This document shows, one piece after another, positions 47,323-57,813 of a stretch of DNA of 64,000 bases (the stretch's first letter is position 1; each line of letters starts with the position of its first letter). The notes under the pieces were generated by a model. That model made no database searches. It saw nothing but the letters and a program-made list of their open reading frames with translations, and had not been told where the DNA came from. The DNA lies in the NCBI RefSeq assembly GCF_947495625.1, contig NZ_CANLZW010000003.1, positions 1 to 64,000 on the forward strand, given 5' to 3'. This DNA is from an uncultured Cocleimonas sp. GTDB taxonomy: Bacteria > Pseudomonadota > Gammaproteobacteria > Thiotrichales > Thiotrichaceae. The position numbers and the translations under genes are program-made.

Positions 47323-47346
47323 GGTTTACCCAAATGAAGGTTGTTC

Positions 47347-50265
47347 ATGAAAAATATCCCAGTAGTTGTAGAAACTGAAGGCGTAGAAGTTAAAACAACA
47401 ACGTGTTACATGTGTGCGTGTCGTTGTGGTATCAAAGTAACCGTTAAAGACGGTGAAGTTCGCTATATTCAGGGTAACCCAAACCATCCATTAAATAAGG
47501 GTGTGTTGTGTGCGAAGGGCGCTTCAGGAATTATGAAGCAGTATTCGCCAGCGCGTTTGACTAAACCGTTATTACGTAAGCCGGGCACTGAGCGTGGTGC
47601 GGGTGAATTCGAAGAGATTTCCTGGGATAAAGCCTTTGGCATTATGGAAGAGCGTTTAGGAAAACTTCGTGCGGAAGACCCTAAGAAATTTGCATTGTTT
47701 ACAGGTCGTGACCAAATGCAGGCGCTAACAGGTATGTTCGCAAAACAGTTTGGTACACCAAACTATGCAGCTCACGGTGGGTTCTGTTCAGTCAATATGG
47801 CGGCAGGAATGATCTACACCATTGGTGGTTCATTCTGGGAATTTGGTGGACCAGATCTAGAACGCTCTAAGTTGTTCTTTATGATCGGCACAGCTGAAGA
47901 TCATCACTCCAACCCGATGAAGGTTGAGCTATCAAAATTTAAACGTAATGGTGGTCGTTTTATCGCGATTAACCCAGTGCGTACTGGTTATGCTGCAATT
48001 GCAGATGAGTGGGTTCCAATAAAGCCTGGAACGGATGGCGCATTATTACTTGCCATTATTCGTGAAATTATCAAATTAGGTATGTACGACCGAGATTTCC
48101 TCGTCAATTACACTAATTCGGCAGAGTTGATAGATATGACTAGCGATAGTCATAACGAAGGTATGTTTCTTCGTAATGATGAGCCAGTCGAAGAAGGTTG
48201 TTTCGATCCTCAAAATAAGTTCTGGTGGGATCGCGTCAATGATGAAGTCGTACCCATGCGTAAAGAAGGTGTTGATCCATTTCTTACGGGTGAGTTTGAA
48301 CTGGAAGATGGCACGCCTTGTAAACCGGCATTCCAGTTATTAAAAGAAAGAGTTGAAGCTTATACGCCAGAGTGGGCTGAAGGAATCACAGGAATCGATG
48401 CTGATACTATTCGCCGCTTAGCGCATGAGATGGGTATCGTCGCTCGCGATCAAAAAATCGAATTACCGATTCAATGGACGGACGCCTGGGGTAAAGACCA
48501 CGATAGCGTAACGGGTAACCCGGTATCATTCCATTCGATGCGTGGTTTAGCTGCTCACTCTAATGGTTTCCAGACGATCCGTGCACTTAGCATATTAATG
48601 ACATTGTTAGGCACGATTGATCGTCCTGGTGGATTCCGTCATAAAGCACCATTCCCGCGCCCAATTCCTCCCTGTCCTAAGCCACCAACAGGCTGGGATG
48701 ATGTTAAACCAAATACACCATTAAACGGCATGCCTTTAGGTTGGCCTGCAGGTCCTGATGATTTGTTTGTTGATGATGATGGTGAAGCAATTCGTCTTGA
48801 TAAAGGCTTCTCGTGGGAATATCCGTTATCGGTTCATGGTTTGATGCACAATGCGATAACTAATGCCTGGCGTGGCGATCCATACCCAATCGATACCTTG
48901 ATGTTATTCATGGCGAATATGGCGTGGAACTCATCAATGAACACCACTGAAGTTCGTAAGATGCTGGTAGATAAAGATGAAGAGGGTGAATATAAAATCC
49001 CATTCATAATCGTTGCTGATGCCTATCATTCTGAGACAGTAGATTTTGGTGACCTAATTCTACCTGATACTTCGTATCTTGAGCGTCATGATGCGATGTC
49101 GATGTTGGATCGTCCTGTTTCAGAATATGACGGCCCTATGGACGCGGTTCGTATTCCAGTGTTACCACCTAAAGGTGAATGTAAACCATTTCAGGATGTC
49201 ATCGTTGAATTAGGTTCACGTCTGAAATTACCTACATTTACCGATGAAAACGGTAAGCGTAAATTCAAAGATTACCGTGATTTAGTGATTAACTTTGAAA
49301 CGGCACCTGGCTCTGGAATCGGTTTCCTTGCAGGATGGCGTGGCAAAAGTGGCGAAAAATCCATGAAAGGTGAGCCAAATCCTAATCAGTGGGAAATGTA
49401 TAAAAAGAATGACTGTGTATTCCATTATGAAATGCCAAAGTCATTCCAGTACATGCGTAACTGGAACAGAGGTTATTTACACTGGGCACAAGAGCACAAT
49501 ATGATCCGCTATGACGAGCCGATCAATATTCATGTGTACTCGGAAATTCTGCAAAAATTCCGTTTGGCAGCCCAAGGTAAAACCAAAGGTAGACAGCCAC
49601 CCGATCGTTTACGTAAGCGCGTGGAAACTTATTTTGATCCATTGCCTTTCCATCACGAGCCACTAGAGTCGCAATTAACTGATACCCAAAAGTACCCATT
49701 AAATGCACTGACGCAGCGCCCAATGGCGATGTATCACTCTTGGGATTCGCAGAATGCATGGTTACGACAAATTCATACGCATAACTATTTATTCGTTAGC
49801 CCGATTCTTGGTCGCAATAATGGCTTTGAGGATGGTGACTGGGTCTGGGTTGAATCCATGCACGGCAAAGTTCGCTGTATGTGTCGATTCTCAGAATCAC
49901 TAGAACCTGGAACGGTATGGACCTGGAATGCAATTGGTAAAGCGTCTGGTGCATGGGGGCTTGATCCAAAAGCCAACGAATCCAATAAAGGCTTCTTGTT
50001 AAATCACGTTATTTCAGAAGAGTTACCGCCGCATGATGCGGGTGACCATGTTTCTAACTCTGACCCTGTAACAGGTCAGGCAGGTTGGTACGACGTTCGC
50101 GTTCGCGTTTATAAAGCGGGTGATAATGAGGCCAGCCATACTTTGCCGAGATTCGACACAGTGAAGCCTTTGCCGGGAATGGAAAAGAAGCGTAAAAATA
50201 AATGGCAAGGTTTTGTGGCGGGTACGTTCCGCAAAACGCTAGGTAGAAATGGAGGGGTGAAATAA
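47347..50265 (+). CDS. soeA: Sulfite dehydrogenase, molybdopterin subunit
   Basis: 972 aa from ATG 47347, which has GAAGG upstream. DMSO reductase family: N-terminal 4Fe-4S site CYMCACRCGIKV with a fourth cysteine in NKGVLCAKG, then bis-MGD-binding domains and a C-terminal dinucleotide-binding domain. No Tat signal peptide, so the enzyme works in the cytoplasm, which fits SoeABC rather than periplasmic polysulfide or thiosulfate reductases. It oxidises sulfite to sulfate and passes electrons to SoeB. First gene of soeABC; the stop overlaps the soeB ATG by one base. Confidence 0.88.
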   Translation: MKNIPVVVETEGVEVKTTTCYMCACRCGIKVTVKDGEVRYIQGNPNHPLNKGVLCAKGASGIMKQYSPARLTKPLLRKPGTERGAGEFEEISWDKAFGIMEERLGKLRAEDPKKFALFTGRDQMQALTGMFAKQFGTPNYAAHGGFCSVNMAAGMIYTIGGSFWEFGGPDLERSKLFFMIGTAEDHHSNPMKVELSKFKRNGGRFIAINPVRTGYAAIADEWVPIKPGTDGALLLAIIREIIKLGMYDRDFLVNYTNSAELIDMTSDSHNEGMFLRNDEPVEEGCFDPQNKFWWDRVNDEVVPMRKEGVDPFLTGEFELEDGTPCKPAFQLLKERVEAYTPEWAEGITGIDADTIRRLAHEMGIVARDQKIELPIQWTDAWGKDHDSVTGNPVSFHSMRGLAAHSNGFQTIRALSILMTLLGTIDRPGGFRHKAPFPRPIPPCPKPPTGWDDVKPNTPLNGMPLGWPAGPDDLFVDDDGEAIRLDKGFSWEYPLSVHGLMHNAITNAWRGDPYPIDTLMLFMANMAWNSSMNTTEVRKMLVDKDEEGEYKIPFIIVADAYHSETVDFGDLILPDTSYLERHDAMSMLDRPVSEYDGPMDAVRIPVLPPKGECKPFQDVIVELGSRLKLPTFTDENGKRKFKDYRDLVINFETAPGSGIGFLAGWRGKSGEKSMKGEPNPNQWEMYKKNDCVFHYEMPKSFQYMRNWNRGYLHWAQEHNMIRYDEPINIHVYSEILQKFRLAAQGKTKGRQPPDRLRKRVETYFDPLPFHHEPLESQLTDTQKYPLNALTQRPMAMYHSWDSQNAWLRQIHTHNYLFVSPILGRNNGFEDGDWVWVESMHGKVRCMCRFSESLEPGTVWTWNAIGKASGAWGLDPKANESNKGFLLNHVISEELPPHDAGDHVSNSDPVTGQAGWYDVRVRVYKAGDNEASHTLPRFDTVKPLPGMEKKRKNKWQGFVAGTFRKTLGRNGGVK

Positions 50266-50999
50266 TGACTCAGTTAGCGCTAGTTATAGACTTAAATGTT
50301 TGTGTTGGCTGTCATGCCTGCGTGACCTCTTGTAAAGAGTGGAATACCTCGGGCGAAGCTGGCCCAATGGTTGATAAATACGCTTATGGAGAAAACCCGA
50401 CGGGTACTTTCTTCAATCGTGTTCAATCGTTTGAAATTGGTACCTACCCACAAACCGAAACGGTACATTTTCCTAAAAGCTGTTTGCATTGTGAAGAACC
50501 ACCGTGTGTTCCGGTTTGTCCAACAGGCGCGAGTTACAAACGCGAAGAAGATGGTATCGTACTGGTAGATTACGATAAGTGTATCGGTTGTAAGTATTGC
50601 TCTTGGGCGTGTCCTTATGGCGCACGTGAGATCGACGAAAAACAACGCGTAATGAAGAAGTGTACGCTGTGTGTCGATCGAATCTACGACGAAGCATTGC
50701 CAGTCAGTGAGCGCAAGCCTGCTTGTGTAATGTCTTGTCCAACCAGTGCTCGTTTGTTTGGCGATGTTCACGATGAAAACTCCGAAGTATCAAAAGCAAT
50801 TCGTGAGCGTGCGGGTTATCAGTTGATGCCAGAGTGGGGAACCAAGCCTGCAAATCATTATTTACCGCGTCGTAAAACAGAAATCAAGATTCATAAAGAT
50901 GAGCTTGAGCGTGTTGATAATCCATTGAGTAAAGAAGAGCGTCTAAGACACAATGAGCCAGGTAAAGGTCCATCGCTCGACGATATGAGTAATTGGTAA
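50265..50999 (+). CDS. soeB: Sulfite dehydrogenase, iron-sulfur subunit
   Basis: 244 aa DmsB-like ferredoxin with four 4Fe-4S clusters: CVGCHACVTSCKEWN, CLHCEEPPCVPVCPTGASY, CIGCKYCSWACPYGA and CTLCVDR with CVMSCPTSARLFGD. It carries electrons from SoeA to the membrane subunit SoeC. Starts at the soeA stop (one-base overlap) with GGAGGGG as ribosome-binding site. The gap to soeC is 157 nt and carries a G6 repeat copy and a strong hairpin. Confidence 0.9.
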   Translation: MTQLALVIDLNVCVGCHACVTSCKEWNTSGEAGPMVDKYAYGENPTGTFFNRVQSFEIGTYPQTETVHFPKSCLHCEEPPCVPVCPTGASYKREEDGIVLVDYDKCIGCKYCSWACPYGAREIDEKQRVMKKCTLCVDRIYDEALPVSERKPACVMSCPTSARLFGDVHDENSEVSKAIRERAGYQLMPEWGTKPANHYLPRRKTEIKIHKDELERVDNPLSKEERLRHNEPGKGPSLDDMSNW

Positions 51000-51057
51000 T
51001 AGAGGGCTGAGAATTCGATGATAATTAAGTCATCAAACACTCAACCCTAGTTGTTTT

Positions 51058-51085
51058 AAAAACCCCCTATAAGTAGGGGGGTGTG
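51058..51085 (+). repeat. G6 repeat, short form (copy 20)
   Basis: A5 tract, CCCCCTAT, then AAGTAGGGGGGTGTG. CCCCC and GGGGG can pair across the TATAAGTA. Lies inside the soeB-soeC gap of an apparent operon. Confidence 0.85.
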
Positions 51086-51093
51086 TTTTAAAG

Positions 51094-51131
51094 TTGTTAA
51101 TCAGATCTGTTGTTACAGATCTGATTAACAA
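51094..51131 (+). promoter_or_regulatory. 17-bp perfect hairpin in the soeB-soeC gap
   Basis: TTGTTAATCAGATCTGT is exactly complementary to ACAGATCTGATTAACAA, with a TGTT loop. There is no T run after it, so it is more likely an mRNA stability or processing element, or a dyad protein site, than a terminator. Confidence 0.7.
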
Positions 51132-51156
51132 AACAAAAAATTATTAGGTAAAAATT

Positions 51157-52137
51157 ATGCATCCAGCATTTTCGGTAATATTTTTAACAACATTGATTGG
51201 CGCAGGTCAGGGCTTGTTTCTGGCTTTGTTTACAGGTCAGATTTTTTCTCAATTTAAAATGATGCCAGCACAACACGATGTTAACTTTTTCATTTGGGGA
51301 AGTGCTCTGGCTATTTTGCTTTTGTGTGTGGGTCTGCTTGCATCATTCTTCCATTTGGGTCACCCAGAAAGAGCCTGGAGAACGGCAACTAAATGGCGCA
51401 CATCATGGTTGTCACGCGAAGTAATTGCATTGCCAGCTGCGATAGTCACCATAGCAGCTTATGGTGCGGCACATTACTTTGGATGGACTGCACCAATATT
51501 TACTATGCCTGGCGGCACAGGGATTGATGCAACCTTATTGCTTGGTTTGGCCGCGACTGTTGCTACTTACGCTTTGTTTATATGTACGGGTATGATTTAT
51601 GGTTGTATCAAGTTTTTGCAGGAATGGCACACACCATTGACGGTGATTAACTTTATCTTATTGGGTACCGCGTCTGGCTTTACTGTTGCAACGGCTTTGT
51701 CTGCATATTTACAAACAGGTCTTGTATCTTTCTATGCAAATTGGGCGATCCTCTTTACCGTAGCGGCGCTTATTTTTCGTATAGCTTCAATGGTGCGTAA
51801 CCGTAATATTAACCCTAAATCCGACCTGAGATCTGCTATTGGTATTAACCACAATAACATCAGGCAAATGGCTCAGGGCTCTATGGGTGGGTCATTTAAT
51901 ACACGTGAATACTTCCACGGAAAATCTAAGTCTTTCGTGAAAAGCATCAAGTACATATTCTTAGTGTTAGCTTTTTTGATACCTATCTTATTTTTGGTAT
52001 TGAGTTTGAATAACCCGGCTTACTTCATTCCGTTAATCGCAGTTGCGGTGCAATATGTGGGTCTGATTGCTGAGCGTTGGTATTTCTTTGCGGATGCTAA
52101 TCATCCTCAGAATTTGTATTACCAGCAGATTTCTTAA
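51157..52137 (+). CDS. soeC: Sulfite dehydrogenase, membrane anchor
   Basis: 326 aa, eight or nine transmembrane helices, DmsC/NrfD-like quinone-interacting subunit. Recognisable parts are PAFSVIFLTTLIGAGQGLF at the N-terminus, LASFFHLGHPERAWR between helices and ISQERWYFFADANHPQNLYY-like AERWYFFADANHPQN at the C-terminus. It hands electrons from SoeB to the quinone pool. Same direction as soeAB; the unusual 157-nt gap may allow separate expression control. Followed by a strong terminator. Confidence 0.87.
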   Translation: MHPAFSVIFLTTLIGAGQGLFLALFTGQIFSQFKMMPAQHDVNFFIWGSALAILLLCVGLLASFFHLGHPERAWRTATKWRTSWLSREVIALPAAIVTIAAYGAAHYFGWTAPIFTMPGGTGIDATLLLGLAATVATYALFICTGMIYGCIKFLQEWHTPLTVINFILLGTASGFTVATALSAYLQTGLVSFYANWAILFTVAALIFRIASMVRNRNINPKSDLRSAIGINHNNIRQMAQGSMGGSFNTREYFHGKSKSFVKSIKYIFLVLAFLIPILFLVLSLNNPAYFIPLIAVAVQYVGLIAERWYFFADANHPQNLYYQQIS

Positions 52138-52162
52138 TAAGCAGATTTAGATTAGAAATTTA

Positions 52163-52200
52163 CCAATAAAAAAGCCTCTAATCGGAGGCTTTTTTATTGG
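52163..52200. terminator. Bidirectional terminator soeC / pabB fusion
   Basis: CCAATAAAAAAGCCTC / GAGGCTTTTTTATTGG, a 16-bp perfect stem between convergent genes. Confidence 0.9.
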
Positions 52201-52246
52201 GTGTTAGAAACGAGAATTAACGAGTAGTTTTAGCAGTGGGTATTTC

Positions 52247-54448
52247 TTAAAACCAGGAGTTGCTTCTATCAACCTCAACGCCTAATTCTCGTATACCCTC
52301 GATTCCGCTTTCGATAAAACATGCATCAATTCCCTCAGAGAGTAGGCGTTCTGTGACACTTTCACTAATACTTCTGCCGTGTACACAATAGACGACGACT
52401 TTTTGATCTTTGGGGATGGTATCGATCCATTTCTCTATTTTTAGAGGGTCCTTCCACTCAGAATTAGGCAAGGTGAATTCTGAGTCTTCGTAATCTCGTT
52501 GTAGGCGAACATCCAGAATAATGACATCATCTTTTTTAGATAGCGCAACGTACTCATCTAAATTAATTGAGTGTGCAGATTCTCCCAGGCCTTGTGTGAC
52601 TGGTTTATCTTTTTCCAGAATGACTCTAACTTCGCCTCTGACAGAGTTGGTGAGTATAATCTCTTCGCAGTGTTGTAACTGATCCAGGGTTAAGAATTTT
52701 TCGACGGCTTCTGTTTTTTGTTTAAAATCTTGACGTTCAATGCCATCTAAAATACCGGCTGAAAGTGGGGGGGTGTACCATTTACCCTGTCTTTTTACGA
52801 AGATATTGTGGCGGCAGGCTTCTGCTATTTCATTGTGTTCATTGAAGATAATCGCTTCGTAATGACCCTCTTTAATGGCTTTATCATATTCTTCGTTATA
52901 AATCTCACGGCGTGATGTTTTGTGGTATTGAAAGATTGATTTACTATTTATCTTGCGACTACTGATCATGATGGTTTTTATTTTTCCATCATCTTCAGGG
53001 AGCAATTCGTGGGTGAGTTCAATATCACCACTGTGAAAGGCAGTGAGTCTCACTTTGTATGATTTATTTTCGGATGACAATGTCGCTTTTAAATCAGAGA
53101 GCTTTTCCTGCATCGCGCGTTGTTTCAGCACAAAGCCAAAATAACTGGCTGAATAATTGAGTCGTTCAAGGTGTTTTCTAAGGTTTTTATAATCCTGTTT
53201 TTCTCCATCAAATTTCATGGTTTCGATGAGATAAAACTTATTATTAATACCGGTTAAAAAATTCGCTTTTAATAGGCACTCTTCGTATTCAGCTTGTGGG
53301 TTACTTTCATAAATAATGCCACTGCCAATACCCATTTCGCAGCGGTTATCTTTGCCGATATCTATGGTTCTAATGGGGACGTTGAAGTAGAAATCATCAT
53401 TAGGCAGCAGGTAACCAATCGCTCCTGTGTAAACGCCGCGTGGTTCGGCTTCTAATTCATTAATAATTTCCATGGTTCGAACTTTGGGTGCACCAGTAAT
53501 CGAGCCACAAGGGAACAGTCCATGGAGTAATTCTGATAAATGAATTTCCGGTTTTAGTTTGCCTTTAATGGTGGAGATCATCTGGTGGATTGTTTTAAAG
53601 GTTTGTATTTCAAACAGATTTTTTACGGTAACGCTTCCTGTTTCGCAGATTCGTCCGAAGTCGTTACGAATCAAATCAACGATCATCACATTCTCGGAGA
53701 GTGTTTTAGGATCGTCTTTCAAAAAATCCAGAATGAACTCATCTTCTTTGGTATTTCTACCGCGTTTCGCTGTGCCTTTCATGGGTTTGGCGTAAATCAT
53801 GCCATCTTTTTTCTTAACAAAAAGCTCGGGTGATAGGGAAACGATATTAGAATTAGGAAAGTTTAGAATAGCGCCAAATTCAACTGGCTGGCTTTTACGC
53901 AGTGCCTTGTAGAGCGAAATTGCATTACCCAATAAATCAAATTTGTATTTGATCGTATAGTTAATCTGGTAGGTGTCGCCGGCGATAATGTAACGTCTAA
54001 TTTTACGGATGGCTTCCAAGTAAGTGTCTTTGGCGACACTCATTGAAAAATTATGAGGACAAAGGTCAGCTTCCGGGTAGGTATTTATTTCGGCAAAGCT
54101 ATTGTCTAATTCTTCTCTACTAATGATTTCCAGTTTATTAAAAGCGACAAAGTAGAGTAGCGGTTGTGTCGGGTGATTGGGTAACCTTTTTTTAATGGGT
54201 TTATCGATAAAATGAAAGCCAGCTTCGTAAGACAGATAGCCGCAAAGGTACAACCCTTCGCTTTTCAGTGCTTCAATTTTCTCTATAGCACCTGGGAGTT
54301 CTTCTTCACTCCAGGCGATAATGAGTTCTTGAGCATCGGTAAACAGCAGGTTTTTAGAGTCTTTGTCATCAGACTTAGAATCTTCTAATAAGGCGTAAAT
54401 TTCATCGTCTTCTGAACCGCCGCATAGTATGTTTGATAGCTCTTCCAT
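52247..54448 (-). CDS. PabB-PabC fusion with C-terminal rhodanese domain
   Basis: 733 aa with three domains. Residues about 1-400: chorismate-binding aminodeoxychorismate synthase component I (PIRTIDIGKDNRCEMGIGSGI near its end). About 411-610: class IV aminotransferase fold, aminodeoxychorismate lyase, with PLP lysine in FQYHKTSRREIY and WYTPPLSAGILDGIER. About 630-733: rhodanese domain with Cys688 in VVYCVHGRSIS. PabB and PabC make p-aminobenzoate for folate; the PabB-PabC fusion is known, but the rhodanese addition is unfamiliar to me. The codons for TPPLSAG resemble the G6 repeat core. No pabA is adjacent. Confidence 0.85.
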   Translation of the reverse strand: MEELSNILCGGSEDDEIYALLEDSKSDDKDSKNLLFTDAQELIIAWSEEELPGAIEKIEALKSEGLYLCGYLSYEAGFHFIDKPIKKRLPNHPTQPLLYFVAFNKLEIISREELDNSFAEINTYPEADLCPHNFSMSVAKDTYLEAIRKIRRYIIAGDTYQINYTIKYKFDLLGNAISLYKALRKSQPVEFGAILNFPNSNIVSLSPELFVKKKDGMIYAKPMKGTAKRGRNTKEDEFILDFLKDDPKTLSENVMIVDLIRNDFGRICETGSVTVKNLFEIQTFKTIHQMISTIKGKLKPEIHLSELLHGLFPCGSITGAPKVRTMEIINELEAEPRGVYTGAIGYLLPNDDFYFNVPIRTIDIGKDNRCEMGIGSGIIYESNPQAEYEECLLKANFLTGINNKFYLIETMKFDGEKQDYKNLRKHLERLNYSASYFGFVLKQRAMQEKLSDLKATLSSENKSYKVRLTAFHSGDIELTHELLPEDDGKIKTIMISSRKINSKSIFQYHKTSRREIYNEEYDKAIKEGHYEAIIFNEHNEIAEACRHNIFVKRQGKWYTPPLSAGILDGIERQDFKQKTEAVEKFLTLDQLQHCEEIILTNSVRGEVRVILEKDKPVTQGLGESAHSINLDEYVALSKKDDVIILDVRLQRDYEDSEFTLPNSEWKDPLKIEKWIDTIPKDQKVVVYCVHGRSISESVTERLLSEGIDACFIESGIEGIRELGVEVDRSNSWF

Positions 54449-54496
54449 GAGCGCATTGTATCAATAAAGCACAACGTTGTAGTAAAAGAAGCGACC

Positions 54497-56908
54497 TTAT
54501 TGTGGATACTGAAACGCTTTCTTATCCATCGGCGAATCATCATCTGTTTTGGCAAAGCGTTGATTTTTATCTTGTAAAATCAGCTGACCAAATACGCGTG
54601 GGTTTTTCCATGCCTGATCGATAGTGGCGTTCCATGAGATTTTTGCATCGCGTGCATCACCATTGTCATCGTCATTGATTTGAATATCAAAACCGATAGC
54701 GTGCTCAGCACTTGGTTGTATATTTAATGTGCTCCACGGGATAGCCGCCTCTAGTTGGTAACCGGTTGGTAATTGTCTAGTGGTGTATTTAATATCTTTT
54801 AGTCTATCCAGAGGTGTTGTGCTACCCGCTGTGATTTCAGACTTGCCTAAACTAAAGCTTAAGTGGAAATCATTGAACTGGTCATAGGTTTCGCCACGGC
54901 TGGCATCAGCATCGATATAGATTTCGATGGAATCATCAGCCCACGATTCTTTAGAATCACTCACATGCACTTCGTCAATGATGCCAACCCAAACGTAGAG
55001 ATTATTATCATCCCAGTTTGCGCGCCATCTTGCGGTTAAATCACGAGGGTTCTCGATGGTGCCTTGAATAACCGTACCAATGAATTCCGCTTTCGCCTGA
55101 TGCAGCGTGCGTTGTCCCGGTGGTTGTTTTTGTATTGCTACGTATTTAGCTGAGCTCTCGTCCTGTTTTCCAGACACTAAATGCTTTGCAATAATCGTTG
55201 GTTTTTGATGACGAACAATTTTTCCGCCACGACAGCTTTCCCACCAGCATGGATTACCATGACTAAAGCCCAGTAATGATCTGTACTTTGGTGCTTGCGC
55301 GGGTGTTTCTGCGATGTGCTCTTTGATTCCCCAGCTACCGTGCCATGTTGAAGGACGAGGAGCGGAAAACGGAATAAACAGTTTTCCACCGAGTTTTTTC
55401 CAGCCTGCAAGGAGCTGGTAGTAGGCTGCACCCATGCGTTTATCTTTATTTGCTTTATATAGGTGCGGAGTTGCGCCCTGAGTCATTGAATGTGTTTTAT
55501 GGTGCACAAGGTGCTGGCCGCCTTCATAAGCGATTAAGTCGACGCCAAAGCCTTTGGTAACCTGCATTTGTTTTTTCACAAAATCAAGCGTGTTGCGAAT
55601 AGAGTAGCGATTGTCCCGCGCATTTAATGCCGTAAAGACATCGTTCACACTTTTGATACCTGCCATTTTGTCCTGTGGAAAATGGAAGTAAGGCGCTACT
55701 GCAATAGCATCGACGTGTTTATAGGCATTCTGAAAGCCCAATAAAGTTTCGGTAAGCTTGGTATTGGTTGTCATACCACCCATTACGCGCACCAATCTAT
55801 CGGTCCCACCAAAAACGCGTTCCCACATTTTGAAAATGTTAACGCTTTGCATTGAGTAGTACTTAGAACCCGCGATATTACGATCTTTATCCAGTTTGAG
55901 TTTATAACCCGTTTGCTTCATATGTTCAGCTTGTGGCACGAAGATGTTGTTCCAGGCTTCGTTGGTGTATTCAAGATACACCCTAAGATTTGGTTTGAGT
56001 TGTTGCTTTACTGTTTGTGCAAAACGATTAATAAAGACGTTATCTGCGTTGTGCGGAATATTAAACCAGGGATCAACATCAAGTATATTGGCCAGCTGAA
56101 TCATCACTTCTATCGGTACGCCGCGCACACCTTCTTTACCACCCCAGGTTGCTTTTTGTAGCGTTGGACGGTCATTCCATGAGCGGATATTGTTACGCGT
56201 AACGCCTGACATATTCATGAAACGCACAACTTTAAAGTCTTTCATGAAATTCAAAAAGTCTGGGTTAAACATCACCTGATTATGATTGTCAGCAAATGAT
56301 TGATAGCTATTGTTGGCACATTGTCTCGCTGTAGTGACACGTTTGAACGGGTCATTTCTACAGATTCCGCCTGGCATCATAATGCGAATATTGCGGATAT
56401 AGTTTTTAGGGTTACTTTCTTTGATAAACATGGTCGCAGTAGCCGTAGGATACATCTCATTTGGCTGTTTCATTGGAACCAGTTTAATAATATCTTTACC
56501 CGGAGAGCGTTTTACAACTTTGGCGCTAGCACCATAATTGATTTTACCTTCGCCTTGATAGAGAACGGTATATTCGCCTTTGGGTAATGCTTCGATAGGA
56601 ATATGGCTGAGGAAACGTGTGCCAGCTTGTCCGCCATTGAGGTTTTTTGGCCAACCATCTTTATCGAAAGAGACATTGCCTTTGGTAAACCAGGGACGAG
56701 CTTCATTAAATGGAAGTGCCAAACGGAAAATATCTGCGAACGGCAAACTGGCATCTACTTCGAGTGCCTCATTGGTATTCATTCCAAGTGGGGAATTTTG
56801 ATTAAACGGAGATGCTTGAGCATCGTTACTTATGCCACTACTCAATAACAATGCCATTAAACTGCTCGCAAGCACTTGCAAGATTGTTACTTGTTGGAAT
56901 TTTTTCAT
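54497..56908 (-). CDS. Exported clan GH-A-like glycoside hydrolase with CBM9-type module
   Basis: 803 aa. Signal peptide (residues about 1-32, cleavage near AQA). A large barrel domain follows with two likely catalytic glutamates: E317 in YLEYTNEAWN and E462 in LIAYEGGQH, spaced and placed as in clan GH-A enzymes. The C-terminal about 200 residues (TARWRANWDDNNLYVWVGIID, DDSIEIYIDAD, YQLEAAIPWSTL) match a CBM9-like carbohydrate-binding module. It may cut or bind extracellular polysaccharide, perhaps the cell's own sheath or matrix. Substrate unknown, and no polysaccharide locus is adjacent. Confidence 0.72.
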   Translation of the reverse strand: MKKFQQVTILQVLASSLMALLLSSGISNDAQASPFNQNSPLGMNTNEALEVDASLPFADIFRLALPFNEARPWFTKGNVSFDKDGWPKNLNGGQAGTRFLSHIPIEALPKGEYTVLYQGEGKINYGASAKVVKRSPGKDIIKLVPMKQPNEMYPTATATMFIKESNPKNYIRNIRIMMPGGICRNDPFKRVTTARQCANNSYQSFADNHNQVMFNPDFLNFMKDFKVVRFMNMSGVTRNNIRSWNDRPTLQKATWGGKEGVRGVPIEVMIQLANILDVDPWFNIPHNADNVFINRFAQTVKQQLKPNLRVYLEYTNEAWNNIFVPQAEHMKQTGYKLKLDKDRNIAGSKYYSMQSVNIFKMWERVFGGTDRLVRVMGGMTTNTKLTETLLGFQNAYKHVDAIAVAPYFHFPQDKMAGIKSVNDVFTALNARDNRYSIRNTLDFVKKQMQVTKGFGVDLIAYEGGQHLVHHKTHSMTQGATPHLYKANKDKRMGAAYYQLLAGWKKLGGKLFIPFSAPRPSTWHGSWGIKEHIAETPAQAPKYRSLLGFSHGNPCWWESCRGGKIVRHQKPTIIAKHLVSGKQDESSAKYVAIQKQPPGQRTLHQAKAEFIGTVIQGTIENPRDLTARWRANWDDNNLYVWVGIIDEVHVSDSKESWADDSIEIYIDADASRGETYDQFNDFHLSFSLGKSEITAGSTTPLDRLKDIKYTTRQLPTGYQLEAAIPWSTLNIQPSAEHAIGFDIQINDDDNGDARDAKISWNATIDQAWKNPRVFGQLILQDKNQRFAKTDDDSPMDKKAFQYPQ

Positions 56909-57049
56909 GATTATTCTTAATTCAGCCGCTGTATTAATATGACAAATCCAACATCAATTGGTTCTATCAATAGCGAATGAAGTAATTAAGCCCCTGTTTT
57001 TTCTAATTATTATTAACCGCCTACCTATTTGTTTCTTTAGCATAGCCCG

Positions 57050-57077
57050 AAAAAGACGTCAAAAGTAGGGGGGTGTA
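57050..57077 (+). repeat. G6 repeat, short form (copy 22)
   Basis: A5 tract, GACGTC, then AAAAGTAGGGGGGTGTA. Lies 3' of pdxH and 5' of the hydrolase gene. Confidence 0.85.
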
Positions 57078-57168
57078 TTATTTATATTTATCTTAACATA
57101 TTAGGGGCTGTTTTTCGATTTCGGTTCACTAATTCCGATAAAGTGTAGAAACCTTAATGTTATATTTA

Positions 57169-57813
57169 TCAAGGTTGTAGGCGTTCGATTTTCCACTCGT
57201 TTAACGCTGTATTTTCCCGGGTATATTCAAAGCGATCGTGCAAACGGCTTTCGCCTCCTTGCCAGAACTCTATCGTTTCAGGGATGACACGGTAACCCCC
57301 CCAAAAATCCGGGAGTGGAATTTCACCATGAGTAAACTTATCTTTGATTTTTTTCAGTTGTCCATCGAGAATTTCACGTGAACTGATAGGGGAGCTCTGC
57401 GCAGATGCCCACGCTCCTAACTGGCTGCCGCGAGGTCGAGAGAGAAAGTATTTGAGTGATTCTGTGGTCGGTATCTTTTCTGCACGACCATTAATTTCTA
57501 CTTGTCTTTCTAGCATTGTCCACGGGAATAGCAGTGAAACATTTGCATTCTCCTGGATCTCTCTGGATTTTTGACTGGAGTAATTTGTAAAGAAGACGAA
57601 ACCTTTCTCGTCGAATATCTTCAGTAATACGGTTCGTTGCGAAGGTTTGCCTGCAGCAGATACAGTGGCTATGGTCATGGCGCTTGGGTCTGATAACTCA
57701 GCATCACTGGCCTGGATAAACCACTTTTCAAACTGTTTAAAGGGAGACTCGCTTAAGTCTTGTCTTTTTAAGCCGCCTTTAGTGTATTCGCGGCGGTAAT
57801 CACCGATATCCAT
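57169..57813 (-). CDS. pdxH: Pyridoxamine 5'-phosphate oxidase
   Basis: 214 aa, normal length. FMN-binding split barrel with [57 protein letters not shown] and the C-terminal [20 protein letters not shown]-type block ending LHDRFEYTR. It oxidises pyridoxamine or pyridoxine phosphate to PLP. AGGAAGG before the ATG supports the start. Monocistronic on the minus strand, upstream of uup. Confidence 0.95.

Follow-up and report, generated by a model that had tools for sequence, protein, structure and literature searches.

The window, a stretch of 64,000 nucleotides from the genome of an uncultured Cocleimonas species, carries on its reverse strand a single ORF in which a chorismate-binding (PabB) domain is followed by a class IV aminotransferase (PabC-like) domain and a C-terminal rhodanese (Table 1). 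All three domains of this 733-aa product exceeded their Pfam cut-offs, which confirms the three-domain architecture put forward in the original prediction. The proposal that the motif CVHGRS represents the rhodanese active-site loop was likewise borne out, as C688 aligned with a cysteine in all 13 unfused ChrE-type relatives. On the same strand, positions 54497-56908 encode an 803-aa protein whose sole Pfam match is a C-terminal CBM9_1 domain (residues 610-780). Convergent with the fusion gene, the forward strand holds at 47341-52137 a row of genes for a molybdopterin oxidoreductase, a 4Fe-4S protein and a DmsC/NrfD-like protein, a set that resembles a sulfite dehydrogenase of the SoeABC type. 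A promoter scan, with 3 found against the 7.4 expected, was uninformative.

Table 1. Parts of the fused gene and their coordinates in the window.
Feature	Position	Strand	Remarks
PabB-PabC-rhodanese ORF, 733 aa with stop codon	52247..54448	-	ATG start; same ORF in C. flava
Chorismate_bind (PabB), residues 140-394, PMKGT at 222-226	53267..54031	-	Pfam E 7.2e-82
Aminotran_4 (PabC-like), residues 407-609, K510	52622..53230	-	Pfam E 3.2e-36
Linker, residues 613-623	52580..52612	-	Alignments: end of unfused PabBC to start of stand-alone rhodanese
Rhodanese, ChrE type, residues 631-720	52289..52558	-	Pfam E 4.9e-07, 30.6 bits, cut-off 22.2
Active-site loop CVHGRS, residues 688-693, C688 at the catalytic position	52370..52387	-	Alignments with relatives

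The PabB part passed the TIGR00553 pabB model (364.8 bits, cut-off 328.4) and missed the cut-off of its best-scoring model, PRK07508 (398.8 of 452). Its PMKGT motif aligns with PIKGT in the ADC synthase structure 8hx6, and K224 was invariant across 18 aligned rows; a lysine within the motif P-[IM]-K-G-T is typical of ADC synthase. The middle part scored 125.7 bits with Aminotran_4 (cut-off 28.5), and K510 (in HKTSRR), which we take to be the PLP lysine, showed the same invariance across the 18 rows. Among the 25 matches listed, no NCBIfam model scored over its cut-off for the PabC part, the best being NF005731, a hypothetical protein model (106 of 189 bits), and the part is called an ADC lyase because it is fused to PabB. 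The genome encodes one other chorismate enzyme, of 495 aa, which adjoins the only TrpG/PabA over cut-off, and two other class IV aminotransferases, one of which passes a D-amino-acid transaminase subfamily model and the other of which was identified by eye as IlvE. From this set of enzymes, the fused protein probably serves as the genome's sole PabB and as its main ADC lyase. Caution is called for, as a mycobacterial enzyme is described that doubles as ADC lyase and D-amino-acid transaminase (PMC8105722).

The rhodanese domain retains 15 of the 16 columns that are invariant among the 13 unfused relatives, D646, R648, C688 and G691 included, and carries a serine at the otherwise invariant G714. 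Modelled alone, it was predicted to adopt a rhodanese fold (pLDDT 80.4), with 65 PDB matches at E values up to 0.001; the 50 listed include GlpE (1gmx), YgaP (5hbo) and a persulfide dioxygenase-rhodanese fusion (5ve3). In the full-length model, residues 614-639 had pLDDT values under 50 and much of the rhodanese, covered by only 2 of the 14 alignment rows, was of low confidence, so that this model does not define how the domains are placed relative to each other and gives no interface information. The conserved residues and the predicted fold suggest that the rhodanese is likely to be catalytically competent.

To establish how widely the fusion occurs, the tail (the PabC end plus the rhodanese) and the full protein were used as queries against 63 genomes of the order, where the fusion was found only in the window's genome and in Cocleimonas flava. 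Among 12 genomes of the genus, G005, G006, G009, G010 and G011 encode PabBC proteins of 609-646 aa that terminate at the PabC end, share 55-61% identity with the fused protein and have no rhodanese. By eye, the CBM9-type neighbour is retained beside PabBC in G009-G011, so that these are syntenic orthologues without the rhodanese. Genomes G002, G003, G004, G007 and G008 each gave one chorismate-enzyme match of TrpE-like size and score, with no bearing on the fusion. The tail query found matches in 26 of 369 genomes of the class and 91 of 398 of the phylum, the window's own counted, and besides the window's own no frame in these sets spanned the PabC end and a rhodanese; three genomes of the order of G220 yielded no further fusion. 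The PabBC part was matched at E 1e-65 or better in 110 of the 398 phylum genomes, PabB-only proteins included. Besides the window's own, none of the 12 phylum frames of at least 700 aa in this search ended in a rhodanese, and two further long frames from the phylum tail search (G703 and G655) contained no rhodanese. A 727-aa PabBC frame (L105:955-3135) carries another C-terminal extension, of about 115 aa with a run of MEKG repeats, which is not a rhodanese. A scan over 84,980 species, with sensitivity limited to close relatives, returned C. flava as its sole find. The order, class and phylum sets overlap, in some genomes a fraction of the first-look candidates was scored (e.g. 3 of 4 to 11 in the phylum search with the PabBC part), and sampling was confined to one phylum; within this range the fusion apparently is rare and lineage-limited. 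The architecture, for which the original prediction knew of no precedent, is not common, with two genomes among the sets scanned, and the open-licence PMC literature searched (titles and abstract starts) contained no description of it.

In C. flava DSM 24830, a sulfur oxidiser, the ORF also encodes 733 aa, is 94.3% identical without a single indel, and has diverged at synonymous sites; its contig measures 795 kb. This indel-free recurrence in a second, independent genome rules out that the fusion is an error of assembly or sequencing, an explanation in favour of which nothing was found and which we regard as practically out of the question. Within the rhodanese, the two species differ by 40.5 synonymous differences over 58.8 sites and by 19.5 non-synonymous differences over 211.2 sites, corresponding to a dN/dS of 0.053 that is only rough because synonymous divergence (1.87) is near saturation. 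Non-synonymous changes account for 20 of 60 in the rhodanese, against 78% expected under neutrality (binomial p ~1e-13). Amino-acid identity between the species is 83.3% in the rhodanese versus 97.5% in PabC, the rhodanese changing faster. Together, the 15 of 16 retained invariant residues and the dN/dS of about 0.05 indicate, at the level of sequence comparison, that the rhodanese domain is maintained by purifying selection.

Synonymous divergence from C. flava is uneven over positions 47341-57813 of the window, ranging from about 0.02 to about 2 over short distances (0.02 where the CBM9-type gene ends, 0.09 for a PNP-oxidase gene and 1.11 for the DmsC/NrfD-like gene), which we read as recombination patches between both lineages. 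Separate origins of the fusion in the two species, hinted at by the 1.87 of the rhodanese, were rejected since divergence is patchy throughout the region. The G+C content of the rhodanese part was 0.419 versus 0.394, and no foreign base composition was seen in this comparison.

The best NCBIfam model for the rhodanese was rhodan_ChrE (NF033833), with 65.1 bits under a cut-off of 120. ChrE of C. metallidurans passes this model (207.3 bits), and L004, a stand-alone relative adjoining ChrA, also falls under its cut-off (70.0 bits). The best matches to the rhodanese in the order were seven stand-alone frames of 108-168 aa from genus g8, 41-44% identical, and a ChrA match was present at every one of these seven loci. 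In a tree of 41 domains (the 2 fused, 21 others from this genome and 18 ChrE-type relatives), the fused pair fell within the ChrE group (99/98), in a Thiotrichaceae subgroup that also holds L067 and the sequences from g8 (100/98), and had L067 as its neighbour (96/88), its own branch being long (1.76); the weakest rhodanese match of the genome (C15:79408, 23.5 bits) was left out. A ChrA match was found in the fetched stretch for 14 of the 18 relatives, that of L070 being weak (27% identity); L069, L074 and L110 had ChrC-type superoxide dismutase or ChrB-type matches only and no ChrA, and the fetched stretch of L067 had neither a ChrA, a ChrC-type superoxide dismutase nor a ChrB-type match. By sequence and tree, the fused rhodanese is kin to the ChrE-type rhodaneses of chromate clusters. 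The ChrA of this genome is located on contig C14 and the fusion on C3, the fused rhodanese lying outside any chr cluster. That the fused domain arose recently as a local copy of the rhodanese at the genome's chr locus (C14, 32% identity) is disfavoured, since the latter falls elsewhere in the ChrE group, though on a long branch of unsure placement.

Alignments reach the start codon of the stand-alone rhodaneses and the end of the PabBC relatives, with some 11 residues (613-623) between them as a linker, from which it appears that a whole chrE-like gene joined a whole pabBC; alignment A3, which mixed PabBC with stand-alone rhodaneses, was unreliable and was discarded. Several other rhodanese arrangements were observed along the way. 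The window's 4.6-Mb genome has 23 rhodanese matches, four of them within one 533-aa frame on contig C35, and beside ChrA on contig C14 a 278-aa protein (L107:2502-3335, reverse strand) has a rhodanese-type N-terminal domain (54.9 bits with the ChrE model, under cut-off) and a second half that by eye resembles ChrB. Frames L069:1468-2409 and L082:1468-2382 each encode a ChrC-type superoxide dismutase with a C-terminal ChrE-type rhodanese.

The reading we favour, with a probability of roughly 0.6, is that an ordinary pabBC and a complete ChrE-type rhodanese gene were joined in frame in a limited lineage, and that the rhodanese is a tethered, working and independent sulfurtransferase. PabBC, with a shared glutaminase (PabA/TrpG), would convert chorismate to p-aminobenzoate, its PabB and PabC parts working like their unfused relatives, and the chrE-like gene would have been added 3' to pabBC through the short linker. 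C688 would take up sulfane sulfur, donated by thiosulfate or a persulfide, to form a persulfide of its own and would hand this sulfur to a cytosolic thiol, an activity independent of the folate enzyme, tethered to it and made along with it. The synthesis of p-aminobenzoate is not known to include a sulfur step, and orthologues in the same genus lack the rhodanese, which makes independent, tethered activities the simplest reading; the independence of PabBC and rhodanese is assumed here. The evidence base for the fusion, two genomes, is thin.

Against an active rhodanese count its faster amino-acid change, the branch of 1.76, the G714S replacement and the missed ChrE cut-off. The faster change, the serine and the long branch would also be in keeping with a domain that was added by chance, has no catalytic activity and persists as a structural tail or relic because an essential gene cannot easily shed part of its frame. 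Such a tail would not be expected to show a dN/dS near 0.05 despite high synonymous divergence, nor to keep C688, D646, R648 and G691 in both species, and the preserved active-site loop argues against a dead appendage, which we therefore hold to be unlikely. Control in cis, which takes up the sensing and persulfidation roles raised in the original prediction, is a different proposition, in which the rhodanese would sense sulfane sulfur or thiol stress and, through C688, persulfidate or guard the folate enzyme at C314, C9, C594 or C710. Three of these cysteines are exclusive to the two fused proteins (C9, C594 and C710, where none of 10, 16 and 13 unfused rows, respectively, has a cysteine), although in two related sequences they may have arisen by chance. 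C314 (in FPCGS) is invariant in 18 rows, but equally in 16 of 16 enzymes without a rhodanese. Purifying selection on a rhodanese inside what is probably the sole PabB of the genome would fit such control, whereas the domain placement left undefined by the full-length model, a pathway with no known sulfur step, and the unfused orthologues within the genus weigh against it, and we consider it quite improbable. If true, p-aminobenzoate would be supplied in step with the cell's sulfane-sulfur or oxyanion status.

The fusion represents a rhodanese type of chromate clusters that has become stably incorporated into a folate enzyme, in an architecture that is new relative to the open-licence PMC literature searched. 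With this protein it can be tested simply if a rhodanese influences the enzyme it is fused to or is only tethered there; the reach of the finding is small, comprising two known genomes of one genus.

Compared with known systems, the protein has the same domain order as bifunctional PabB-PabC fusions, and PabBC frames of about 580-690 aa without a rhodanese occur in many genomes of the phylum; unlike the window's protein, the other PabBC frames that were opened (5 genus orthologues and 14 long frames) have no rhodanese. The ChrE-type rhodaneses are nearest to the fused domain by sequence and tree, and the fused domain has all but one of their invariant residues. It differs in being carried by a folate enzyme outside any chr cluster and in scoring below the ChrE cut-off. 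According to one source, ChrE has no clearly defined function, which may have to do with complexes of chromium and glutathione (PMC10581121). A NirA-rhodanese fusion has been reported in 19 halobacterial proteins (PMC11237513). This fusion, the superoxide dismutases with a ChrE-type tail (L069 and L082), and the persulfide dioxygenase-rhodanese and CoADR-RHD found among the PDB matches likewise have a single rhodanese joined to an enzyme. The partners in those fusions are enzymes of sulfur, thiol or redox-stress metabolism or sulfite/nitrite reductases, whereas here the partner is an enzyme of folate-precursor synthesis.
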